From Sulfobacillus acidophilus (GTDB taxonomy: Bacteria; Bacillota; Sulfobacillia; Sulfobacillales; Sulfobacillaceae), in contig PXYV01000008.1 in assembly GCA_003023745.1 (NCBI GenBank), forward strand, positions 1 through 64,000: DNA of 64,000 nucleotides, in the 5' to 3' direction. Position 1 is the first letter of the stretch. Each line of letters begins with the position of its first letter. The notes under the pieces are model-generated. The model did no database searches, was not told where the DNA came from, and worked only from the letters and a program-made list of their open reading frames with translations. This document shows, piece by piece, positions 32,554-36,510 of this stretch. A program made the position numbers and the translations under genes.

Positions 32554-32934
32554 GTGGCCACGGTATTAGTGATCGACGATGAGTGGGGTATCCGCGATAT
32601 TGTGAAACTGGCACTCGGTCAAATTGGCGTCGACGTAATCGAGGCCGACTCAGCACAAGTCGCCTTGGAAATTTTGAGTCGGAGCGAGCTCGATGTCGTC
32701 ATTACCGACATTCGTCTGCCCGATATGAATGGTTTGGACTTAGCCCGCAACATTCGTCAGTCGTATCCCGCTTTGCCAACGATATTTATGTCGGCCGCAA
32801 CCTCGGGCCTCTTTCTGGCGTCTTCCCAACCCGAACAAATTTGGCTGGAAAAGCCTTTTAAGATCCAAGATTTGCAGACTGTCGTACAAGAGGTCCTCGA
32901 TTGGACGCGACACGCGGCCGAGCCGATGTCCTAA
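32554..32934 (+). CDS. Single-domain response regulator (Spo0F/CheY-like)
   Basis: Receiver domain of 126 residues without an output domain. Asp8 and Asp9 (VIDDEWG), phospho-acceptor Asp52 (ITDIRLPDMNG) and Lys100 (LEKPFK) are all in place, so it should accept phosphate. GTG start after GGTGAGAAGGGACGAG. It lies 77 bp upstream of the nitrilase-family genes and is probably co-transcribed with them. No kinase gene is adjacent. Confidence 0.88.
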   Translation: MATVLVIDDEWGIRDIVKLALGQIGVDVIEADSAQVALEILSRSELDVVITDIRLPDMNGLDLARNIRQSYPALPTIFMSAATSGLFLASSQPEQIWLEKPFKIQDLQTVVQEVLDWTRHAAEPMS

Positions 32935-33011: not shown

Positions 33012-34049
33012 ATGCTCGTCGACTTATTTTGTGTCCAACCTTATATGCGGCCTCACGACTATTACACCCCCGAGGCCTTTCAGCATCGCGTGGCCCGGTA
33101 TTTCAGCCAGGCCGACGCCATGCGTCAGACGCATCGTCCCGCTCTCATTGTTTTCCCCGAGGATATTGCCACATTTCTCCTGATGGCTGGCCATCAAGAC
33201 ACTTTGGCCGGCACGCACACGATGGATGCCGCATTTCGAGCCATCGGCCAAAAAAAGTTTTTGGCGCTTCTCGGCACCATGGGACGATTTCAAACATTGA
33301 GTATGCGCCGAGCCTTTTTCACCCTGGGGGCCGCTCAGGTTTGGCGCATTTGGTATACCAGCATGGCCGAGCTGGCGCGCCAATACCACATGACCGTCGT
33401 GGCGGGATCGGCGCTATTGCCGGACAATCGTTGGCCTTACCCCACCCATCAATATCAGCCCAAAAATTCTCGCATTTATAACCTGAGCATCACCATCGAT
33501 CCCAAGGGCGACATCATCTATTACACCCGCAAGGTTAACCTGGTCCCCACGCAAGAAGATCAACTTGATCTCACACCGGGATCACTAACCGACGCACAAA
33601 GAATTGTGTTCTTGCCCACGACCCAAATCCCGCTGGCCACCGCAATCTGTTACGATGGGTTTTGCCGCCCGCATACCGACCAGGAGCCGGATTTCGTGAA
33701 CGTGCTCGAGGCTCTGGACCGTCAGGGAGCAAAGCTCGTAGCACAACCGTCGGCTAACCCCTGGTGGTGGAATGAGCCATGGCCACTCGAGCGCACTGGT
33801 CAAAGCCGACTGCGATCGGTGCAATGGGACGAAGAGGGTTCGCTGGCCGCCCTGCAACAATGCCAAAACATCGAGATCATCGTCAACCCGCAACTGCAGT
33901 TAGAATTTCTTGATCTGCACTTTGACGGCCAAAGTCGCATCCTCGCGCGACACGGCGCGCAAGTGGAGATCTTGGCCGCCAGCGAATTCACGCGCGGACC
34001 TGAAGCGGATACCGTTTTGCATGCGGTGTGGGACTTTTCCACGACCTGA
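33012..34049 (+). CDS. Nitrilase-superfamily amidohydrolase (catalytic triad intact)
   Basis: Carbon-nitrogen hydrolase that cleaves amides or nitriles. The Glu-Lys-Cys triad is visible: Glu in LIVFPEDIATFL, Lys in YYTRKVNLVPTQED, Cys in ATAICYDGFCRP. About 345 residues, longer than simple omega-amidases. The ORF track starts 37 residues early; the ATG at 33012 follows ACAGGGGGTCA and begins MLVDLFCVQPYMRP. The next gene, a homologous but degenerate nitrilase domain fused to an amidohydrolase barrel, follows at once. The substrate is unknown. Confidence 0.85.
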   Translation: MLVDLFCVQPYMRPHDYYTPEAFQHRVARYFSQADAMRQTHRPALIVFPEDIATFLLMAGHQDTLAGTHTMDAAFRAIGQKKFLALLGTMGRFQTLSMRRAFFTLGAAQVWRIWYTSMAELARQYHMTVVAGSALLPDNRWPYPTHQYQPKNSRIYNLSITIDPKGDIIYYTRKVNLVPTQEDQLDLTPGSLTDAQRIVFLPTTQIPLATAICYDGFCRPHTDQEPDFVNVLEALDRQGAKLVAQPSANPWWWNEPWPLERTGQSRLRSVQWDEEGSLAALQQCQNIEIIVNPQLQLEFLDLHFDGQSRILARHGAQVEILAASEFTRGPEADTVLHAVWDFSTT

Positions 34050-35653
34050 CCGAACAACGCCACGTTATCCCAGAAAGAGAATCTGTTCTCCCCGGATTGC
34101 CAATTAATGCTAGTTATAGTAATATATGCATATTCATCTTTGAATGGGAGGGAGTTGCCACGACCCCTCGTATCGCCGTATCTCAGGGCCCGTATATCCG
34201 CGACCTCGACGCCGCCTTAATTCGCTGTTTCGAACATTTGCGACACGCGGCTAGCCGCGGCGTAGACATTATGGTTTTCCCAGAATGGTTTTTGGGACTC
34301 AACCCCGTAGACGTCCTGCCCAATCGCTACACGGAGCGCATCAGTCGCGTCGCCCGCGAATTGAACGTGATGGTCATTGCCGGTAGCATTCGGGCACTGG
34401 AACCCGATACGGGCAGGAAGCAACAACGCTCCCTGGTCATCGAGTCGGATGGGACGCTAGTGGGATCGCACGCCAAACTACTCTTTCATCCCACTGAACG
34501 TCCTTGGTTTGAGCCCGGTGTCGGCGTTTTTGCTATTGCCAGTCGCTGGGGTCGAATTATTGTGTTGCCCGGCCTCGACGCATTAGACCCCGAGATCTGG
34601 CATAGTGCTCGAGAACTCACACCCGATTTGGTCGTCATGGCTGCTAATCCTCGGACCCTTAGCGAACGCAACGCCGCGCAGGAGCTGACGATTCAACGCA
34701 GCCAAGAAATCGATGGAACAGTGGTTTTGGCTCCACTTTTAGGGCGGTTTTCAGGTTCTTCGTACGTTGGTGGTGCCCTGATTGCCCATCAAGGCCGGAT
34801 GCTAGGCATGGCCGATGACCAGGAAACGGTTCTCATTGGGGGAGATCCTGAGGCCCCCTTAATTCAATTAGGAACCACGGACGCTACCGCGTATTTGCCT
34901 TTAACTCCTCCTCTCGAGGGATCCCTCGATGTGACGCGTTCGATGGGTCCCCAGGCCGAGAGGCGAGTATTGGTCGACTGGGGCATGATGGCGGCCACGG
35001 ACGTCCTCAACGTTGTAGAAGAGTTGTTCCATGTGATAAGAGACAATCCCCGCTGGACGGCGCTGGTGCCAGCCCGGCCAGGTGCCTCCGCACACTTGCG
35101 GCAATGGCTGGACCGCGGAGCGGCTGGCGCATTCGCGTACCCGGGATTGGAACGGCACTTCCCCTGGTCCGATGCAATCCGTCAACTGGGCCGGGAACTG
35201 AGCAAGACGCCCAAACCGCTCTTGGTCCACAGTGGTCCAGGCCCAGCCCCGCTACGATTCGATAGTCCGGCTCTATGGGATGAATTTCTCATGGAATTCC
35301 CGGCGGTTCCCGTGATTTTCCAGTCGATGGGCCAACGCCCGCCTTACATCGAGCAAGCTTTCGTCCTGGCAGAACGTCATCCACAAGTCCAGCTCGAAAC
35401 CTCCCGCGTCCCGATTGGAGCAATCAAAGAGGCGCTTGGCACGGTCGGAGCCGATCGCCTTTTGTTTGGCAGTGGCGGCCTGGCCCAGGACTTTCAGCAG
35501 GAATGGGAAAAGCTGGCGCATCTGGAGTCAGAGATATCACCCGAGCTATTTCAAAAAATTGTTAACCTCAATGCCCGCCACCTCTTCTTTCACGTGCAAG
35601 CACCCGATCGGCGCACACAAAGTAAAGTCAGATCTTTTCGACTGCCCAGCTAA
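34028..35653 (+). CDS. Degenerate nitrilase domain fused to a degenerate amidohydrolase-2 barrel
   Basis: Residues about 45-290 form a nitrilase fold with Glu (MVFPEWFLG) and Lys (SHAKLLFHPTERPW) kept, but the catalytic Cys region reads IIVLPGLDALDPEIW, with Gly where Cys is expected. From about residue 300 a TIM-barrel like amidohydrolase family 2 follows: VLVDWGMMAATD stands where the HxH metal pair should be, LLVHSG keeps one His, and LLFGSGGLAQ has Gly where the metal-binding Asp should be. Both halves therefore look inactive. 541 residues from GTG 34028, which overlaps the upstream gene and has no ribosome binding site. A promoter and GGGAGGGAG lie inside this leader, so the true start may be near 34160. 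Confidence 0.7.
   Translation: MGLFHDLTEQRHVIPERESVLPGLPINASYSNICIFIFEWEGVATTPRIAVSQGPYIRDLDAALIRCFEHLRHAASRGVDIMVFPEWFLGLNPVDVLPNRYTERISRVARELNVMVIAGSIRALEPDTGRKQQRSLVIESDGTLVGSHAKLLFHPTERPWFEPGVGVFAIASRWGRIIVLPGLDALDPEIWHSARELTPDLVVMAANPRTLSERNAAQELTIQRSQEIDGTVVLAPLLGRFSGSSYVGGALIAHQGRMLGMADDQETVLIGGDPEAPLIQLGTTDATAYLPLTPPLEGSLDVTRSMGPQAERRVLVDWGMMAATDVLNVVEELFHVIRDNPRWTALVPARPGASAHLRQWLDRGAAGAFAYPGLERHFPWSDAIRQLGRELSKTPKPLLVHSGPGPAPLRFDSPALWDEFLMEFPAVPVIFQSMGQRPPYIEQAFVLAERHPQVQLETSRVPIGAIKEALGTVGADRLLFGSGGLAQDFQQEWEKLAHLESEISPELFQKIVNLNARHLFFHVQAPDRRTQSKVRSFRLPS
34097..34125 (+). promoter_or_regulatory. Promoter inside the 5' part of the nitrilase-amidohydrolase ORF
   Basis: TTGCCA (34097-34102) and TAATAT (34120-34125) are 17 bp apart, in a locally AT-rich patch. 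The GGGAGGGAG at 34146-34154 follows the likely transcript start by about 14 nt. This argues that translation begins after it, not at GTG 34028. Confidence 0.55.
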
Positions 35654-35745: not shown

Positions 35746-36510
35746 TTGGTTAGGTCAGCGTCTAGTGGAGTTTGTGCCCTGTCTGGGCGTGGCAAATCCC
35801 TCATTTCTTTGTCGGGCGCACACGAAATACTTCAATCACTTTCTGTTGGTCTTGATCGTACCATTGCAGGATTCCGACCACAGCTAAACGAGCCGAAGGA
35901 GGGTTTTACGTCGAACACTATTGCACCAGCCGACAAAATTCCTGTCGTTGACCTCGGCGGTCGGCGCTTAACCCCTTGCAGTCCGGAAAAAGCTCAACAA
36001 AACGTGCAGGACGGATTGGCGATCTTACGGAATGATGGCGTATTGCAACTGAACTATCGGCCCTTGGCACATCGCCGCATCTACCGTCAGGTACAACAGC
36101 GTGACGGATGGATTTGTGGCTGGTGTCAAGGACCCGGATCGACTCTCGATCATGTAATCCCCATTTGCTGGGGAGGACAAACCATACCGGAAAATTGCGT
36201 GATTGCCTGTCGATCATGCAATCACAGTCGCAACAACGCGTTGCCCTCAACGTTCATTCGCTGGACAGGGCTAAAGCCCAGCCATCCCGTCATCCGCCAT
36301 ATTCTCACCCATGAGTCAGCCATCCTGGACCGTGCCCAACAATCCTTGGCATCCCGCCCGTTATCGTCATGCGTCAGCCGTGAAGAGGCGCAAATTTGGA
36401 TCGCCTTTCACACAAATCCCATCGAGCGAGTCCAACCTACACCGGTGGAAGAACCGCTAACGCGCGTGAAAAACGAGACCCGCGCCTTTAGCGAATACTT
36501 TGTGCCGTAA
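35746..36510 (+). CDS. HNH endonuclease with RRXRR-like N-terminal domain
   Basis: The HNH fold is clear: RRIYRQVQQRDGWICGWCQG, STLDHVIPICWGG, then NCVIACRSCNHSRNN, with paired Cys for a structural zinc and the DH of the active site. Before it lies KIPVVDLGGRRLTPCSPEKA, similar to the RRXRR domain that precedes HNH nucleases in some proteins. The first 54 residues of the listed ORF match nothing. GAAGGAGGG at 35895-35903 sits 4 nt before an in-frame ACG at 35908, which may be the real start region; TTG 35746 has no good site. Such proteins occur in mobile DNA and defence settings; the role here is unknown. Confidence 0.72.
   Translation: MVRSASSGVCALSGRGKSLISLSGAHEILQSLSVGLDRTIAGFRPQLNEPKEGFTSNTIAPADKIPVVDLGGRRLTPCSPEKAQQNVQDGLAILRNDGVLQLNYRPLAHRRIYRQVQQRDGWICGWCQGPGSTLDHVIPICWGGQTIPENCVIACRSCNHSRNNALPSTFIRWTGLKPSHPVIRHILTHESAILDRAQQSLASRPLSSCVSREEAQIWIAFHTNPIERVQPTPVEEPLTRVKNETRAFSEYFVP

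Follow-up and report, generated by a model that had tools for sequence, protein, structure and literature searches.

Putative double pseudoenzyme joining nitrilase and amidohydrolase folds in Sulfobacillus and its kin

The window analysed here is a stretch of 64,000 nucleotides from a Sulfobacillus acidophilus contig and contains, on the forward strand, an open reading frame of 541 codons (NIT2, 34028..35653) that is predicted to encode a double pseudoenzyme. The usual upstream neighbour of NIT2 is NIT1 (33012..34049, forward strand), an intact nitrilase-fold gene identified through Pfam (5.4e-9). The residues E50, K174, E182 and C213 of NIT1 are kept in 25 of 25 aligned sequences, and its structure model has a pLDDT of 94. 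A stand-alone receiver domain is encoded further upstream on the same strand (32554..32934). Both genes that the sequence-only reading had placed ahead of NIT2, an intact nitrilase homologue and a receiver-domain gene, are therefore present. Downstream lies an HNH endonuclease-like gene (35746-36510); in 22 of 34 loci a member of its cluster occurs close to NIT2. The large ORFs antisense to NIT2 are presumed to be shadow frames, as expected in G+C-rich genes.

Position 34028 is the mechanical start of the NIT2 frame and overlaps the NIT1 stop, while the part that is homologous to the orthologs begins at about 34157-34160. Residue numbers given below for individual sites are counted from 34160, and the site counts derive from an alignment (A1) of 31 orthologs. 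Translation of the orthologs starts two to three residues before a PRIAV motif and after a good Shine-Dalgarno sequence. The window copy contains a Shine-Dalgarno-like GGGAGGGAG in this region, no in-frame ATG, GTG or TTG is found at the ortholog-conserved start site (34130-34166), and the nearest TTG, at 34155, lies in another frame. Possible explanations are a start at the upstream in-frame TTG at 34097, a non-standard start codon or an assembly error.

The first half of NIT2 (34169..34837, forward strand) matches the CN_hydrolase family (PF00795, 2.2e-12) over residues 48-270 of the ORF, with a score above the gathering cut-off. The a-b-b-a nitrilase fold is also supported by structure comparison: in an AlphaFold model built from the family alignment, the N-terminal half matches solved nitrilases with a best E-value of 5.4e-16. 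The best 50 Foldseek matches of the model are all nitrilase-superfamily structures, with D-carbamoylases and N-carbamoylputrescine amidohydrolase at the top. The model has a pLDDT of 84 and a pTM of 0.54, and the placement of the two halves relative to each other is uncertain. Three residues of the catalytic set are invariant in all 31 orthologs, namely the Glu of the FPEW motif (E42, 34283..34285), the Lys (K106, 34475..34477) and the second Glu in TERPWF (E113, 34496..34498). This second Glu belongs to the C-E-E-K set of several nitrilase families (PMC6946656). The position of the nucleophilic Cys is occupied by Gly (residue 138, 34571..34573), likewise in 31 of 31 orthologs, so that the complete Glu-Lys-(Glu)-Cys set is absent throughout; the Asp that follows the Cys site (D140) is also invariant. 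An HMM alignment to yeast Nit3 (1f89) sets the query 'GriviLlGlDa' on 'GKFGVGICYDM', with the Gly under the Cys. Replacement by another Cys was considered and rejected, as no column of the 31-ortholog alignment holds Cys in at least 10 rows. The sequence-only reading had described this half as keeping Glu and Lys with Gly in the place of the catalytic Cys, and the family alignment bears this out and offers no alternative conserved Cys. Because the nucleophile is Gly in every ortholog, nitrilase-family chemistry should not be possible in NIT2.

A second kind of pseudo-nitrilase was observed in the same order at L114:3214-5727(+), L115:1305-3965(-) and L116:1317-3863(-). These genes encode proteins of about 840-890 aa with a Tat-signal-like motif (RRQFL) and a NIT1-like domain, in which SKD stands for CYD (Cys to Ser) and the FPED/YPED Glu and the Lys are kept.

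The second half (34937..35587, forward strand) is a truncated Amidohydro_2 barrel (PF04909, 9.9e-8; residues 304-520 of the ORF, above the gathering cut-off) that also matches the solved structure 3irs (1.4e-7) and, by profile comparison, the protein encoded at L102:1198-2031 (1.9e-15). The L102 protein is an intact stand-alone Amidohydro_2 relative of the same barrel subfamily, aligned through the LRF-SP-WDEF-FP-VPVI region, and it carries HVH, MFHTG, LVHGG and FGSD. It thus keeps the HxH pair, the b5 and b6 His and the metal Asp, whereas NIT2 lacks the metal ligands HxH on b1 and Asp on b8. The Pfam match of NIT2 starts at position 44 of the model, and the profile comparison with L102 likewise sets in downstream of the HxH strand. 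The NIT2 strand 'VLVDW' aligns with strand b2 of L102, and therefore the b1-HxH strand/helix unit, about 45-60 aa without a counterpart in NIT2, is missing. A substitution of HxH in place by 'DWG' was rejected, since both the alignment and the profile comparison favour loss of the b1 unit. Gly occupies the site of the b8 metal Asp in 31 of 31 orthologs (FGSGG, 35474..35476). The earlier claim for this half was hence right about the lost metal Asp (FGSG for FGSD) and needs revision for HxH, which is not mutated but absent with its whole strand.

Remnants of the metal site can still be recognised at b5, where His (LVHSG, 35228..35230) is kept in the window copy and present in 24 of 31 orthologs, and at b6, where the window copy has Ser (35324..35326) and the family has His in 17, Ser in 13 and Ile in one. 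Other residues at the barrel strand ends are conserved, including D273 (30/31) and W274 and S438 (both 31/31). Neither a conserved Cys nor a fully conserved His occurs anywhere in the 31-ortholog alignment. The solved and uncharacterised Amidohydro_2 protein BB4693 (3irs), a barrel of the same subfamily as NIT2, shows FGTAYP at b8 in the alignment and seems to lack the metal Asp; it also aligns without the b5 His. NIT2 is therefore not alone in this barrel subfamily in having lost the metal site.

The fusion is present in 37 of the 42 genomes of the acid-loving order that comprises Sulfobacillus and its kin, whereas a search of 112 genomes from the rest of the class did not find it. In a scan of the collection, it was confined to Sulfobacillus (S. 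harzensis, S. thermotolerans, S. benefaciens) and to MAGs, mostly labelled Bacillota; two further matches, in Nocardioides, were nitrilase-only. Among 300 genomes spread over the phylum, nothing but lone barrels turned up outside the order, and all searches beyond the order taken together yielded only lone barrels or lone nitrilase domains. NCBIfam returned only weak, sub-threshold matches to NIT2, and no PADLOC model for anti-phage defence matched it at E<=0.1. In the tree, the members of family f2 form one supported clade, as expected under vertical inheritance.

The computable pairs with dS<1 gave YN00 omega values of 0.067, 0.143, 0.095 and 0.083 for NIT2, and both halves are constrained in pairs with unsaturated dS. 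Identity to the window copy is on average 3.4 points lower than that of ArgS and 6.3 points lower than that of a nearby SpeE-like protein from the same genomes. Compared with NIT1 over 22 loci, it is 4.0 points higher, and higher in 14 of them. The residue losses are identical in every ortholog and are therefore not due to chance. The description of NIT2 as a conserved, full-length and catalytically incapacitated fusion holds for 31 of 31 orthologs; no relative with intact active-site residues was found, and the window copy is not a lone decayed one. NIT2 thus combines the general features of a pseudoenzyme, which are an enzyme fold, family-wide loss of catalytic residues and purifying selection. 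Judged from its sequence, NIT2 is a double pseudoenzyme of ancient origin that is specific to this lineage and held by strong purifying selection, and it is predicted from its residues to be catalytically inactive. As both halves lack their catalytic parts and are yet conserved at a near-housekeeping level, the protein probably has a job other than the chemistry of its relatives.

Both NIT1 and NIT2 occur in 33 of the 42 genomes; four have NIT2 only, two have NIT1 only and three have neither. In 27 of the 33 genomes with both, NIT1 precedes NIT2 on the same strand at a distance of no more than about 400 bp, and this same-strand pair spans three families of the order. Four genomes (G016, G019, G020, G027) have NIT1 farther upstream, at about 4-8 kb and again on the same strand, and the two genes are on separate contigs in two of the 33. 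The co-occurrence is weak (Fisher P=0.026, and P=0.26 without incomplete genomes). The four genomes with NIT2 and no intact NIT1 occupy three separate positions in the tree, and in one genome (G010) debris of NIT1 lies upstream of an intact NIT2. The reverse is seen in G036, where an intact NIT1 is followed by frameshifted NIT2 debris. The expected pairing with an active nitrilase in relatives is accordingly common, and it is not invariable: NIT2 is not a gene that is never encoded without its active partner. The pairing could also be inherited gene order without function. The profiles of the two families match only locally (57 columns, 67% probability), so NIT2 as a recent duplicate of NIT1 was rejected, and from this local match NIT1 and NIT2 are taken to be distant homologues.

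Relaxed constraint on NIT2 after NIT1 loss was not detected relative to ArgS or SpeE in the four genomes, which represent three lineages. The identity of NIT2 minus that of ArgS averages -6.0 points where NIT1 is missing; genomes that are equally distant and have NIT1 average -4.6 points (Mann-Whitney P=0.52). The test with the SpeE control gave P=0.61. With only four informative genomes, this test excludes only a large effect, and a moderate one would be missed.

Only four of the loci examined (the window, L035, L038 and L040), all close relatives, have the receiver gene directly before NIT1, and the association of the receiver gene with the pair is local and not general. Elsewhere, a GAF-PAS histidine kinase or a urocanase lies between or beside NIT1 and the receiver. 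The urocanase is encoded on the opposite strand beside NIT1 in about ten loci from two families (L032, L034, L041, L054, L056-L059, L062, L063). The receiver or the histidine kinase as a constant partner was rejected because the positions differ between genomes, and none of the receiver gene, the histidine kinase and the urocanase is a constant partner.

The favoured reading, with a probability of about 0.5, is that NIT2 is a non-catalytic scaffold or sensor that binds a small molecule, is held under purifying selection and has NIT1 as a frequent, non-obligate partner. The nitrilase pocket, with its Glu-Lys-Glu set and Gly for Cys, would bind a small molecule of the amide, nitrile or carboxylate type and leave it uncleaved, and the truncated barrel would provide a second binding or docking module. 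NIT2 would then act as a ligand-responsive scaffold or sensor, with NIT1 as a frequent functional partner through shared transcription and perhaps a shared ligand. That the pocket may still bind a ligand is suggested by the invariance of its charged set and by amidases with Cys changed to Ala, which hold amides in crystals. By their titles, such structures include 6ypa with glutaramide and 4izs with butyramide, and the Cys-less pocket of NIT2 plausibly resembles those of the engineered proteins that hold substrate. Since Cys-less amidases have been crystallised with substrate, the binding hypothesis for NIT2 is directly testable. NIT1 would be one client among others, as NIT2 is retained under similar constraint in the genomes that have lost NIT1. 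An extension in which NIT2 is an order-wide sensor, with the nitrilase half as a natural substrate trap for a metabolite of one of these three types and the barrel relaying the occupancy of the trap to NIT1 and other clients, is speculative and judged unlikely in this full form.

The main rival to the scaffold or sensor reading makes NIT2 an obligate scaffold or regulatory subunit of a NIT1 amidase, that is, part of a hetero-oligomer in which NIT2 is needed for NIT1 stability or control. Nitrilase-fold proteins are oligomeric, which would suit such a complex, as would the close same-strand pairing, at about 400 bp or less, in 27 of 33 genomes from three families. A precedent is also available in an inactive amidohydrolase-type subunit that is required for activity (PMC7053772). 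These points are set against the loss of NIT1 in about three lineages that kept NIT2 with no relaxation detected, the one decay of NIT2 beside an intact NIT1, a co-occurrence that is weak without incomplete genomes (P=0.26) and profiles that match only locally. An exclusive role as NIT1 subunit is unlikely because of the first two of these, and the simple form of the complex proposed in the sequence-only reading is not supported; the obligate-subunit model as a whole is considered doubtful.

In a lesser rival, NIT2 would be an enzyme with unrecognised, metal-free chemistry that relies on conserved residues of another kind, such as the invariant Lys/Glu pair of the nitrilase pocket or, at the barrel strand ends, D273, E413 and S438. 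Metal-independent members of the amidohydrolase superfamily do exist, such as the lactonase LigI, and many polar residues are invariant in both halves of NIT2; conserved residues are also kept at the barrel strand ends (D273 in 30/31, W274 and S438 in 31/31). However, the nucleophile and the metal Asp are both Gly in every ortholog, the HxH unit is gone and no conserved Cys or fully conserved His is left, which makes this chemistry quite improbable. That NIT2 is a pseudogene or a relic on its way out, kept by chance or misassembled, would agree with the missing standard start codon of the window copy at the conserved start site and with the NIT2 debris in one genome. Nevertheless, the frame is open in 37 genomes, omega is 0.07-0.14 and conservation is close to that of ArgS. 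Pseudogene status or lone decay was rejected on these grounds; for the family this reading is already refuted, and what is left of it is extremely improbable.

NIT2 belongs to the known class of pseudoenzymes, within which nitrilase-fold members appear to be little described. Searches of open-access full text for pseudoenzymes in the nitrilase family returned no paper, although this does not prove that none exists, and nothing on point was found in the literature on Cys-less nitrilase, Sulfobacillus nitrilase or metal-free amidohydrolases. A doubly dead fusion that is kept order-wide at near-housekeeping constraint offers a natural test of what enzyme folds do after their chemistry is lost. 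It also advises caution in annotation, as NIT2 should not be labelled a nitrilase or an amidohydrolase in these acidophilic, biomining bacteria.

NIT2 shares with the CN_hydrolase/nitrilase superfamily, including yeast Nit3 (1f89) and the N-carbamoyl amidohydrolases, the fold, the Glu, the Lys, the second Glu and the Asp of the CYD motif, and differs in that all NIT2 orthologs have Gly for the nucleophilic Cys. NitFhit and glutamine-dependent NAD+ synthetase resemble NIT2 in fusing a nitrilase-fold domain to a second functional domain; in NIT2, however, the partner domain is an amidohydrolase barrel, and catalytic residues are missing from each half. A further likeness is found in the pseudo-dihydroorotase (pDHO) of class A2 aspartate transcarbamoylases, as in Pseudomonas; it is inactive and yet necessary for ATCase activity (PMC7053772). 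Like NIT2, pDHO is an inactive amidohydrolase-type protein that has lost its metal ligands and is kept by selection, and it works with an active enzyme. In contrast, pDHO is a full-size barrel that the transcarbamoylase requires, whereas NIT2 has a truncated barrel joined to a second dead fold, and the gene of its neighbouring enzyme can be lost.
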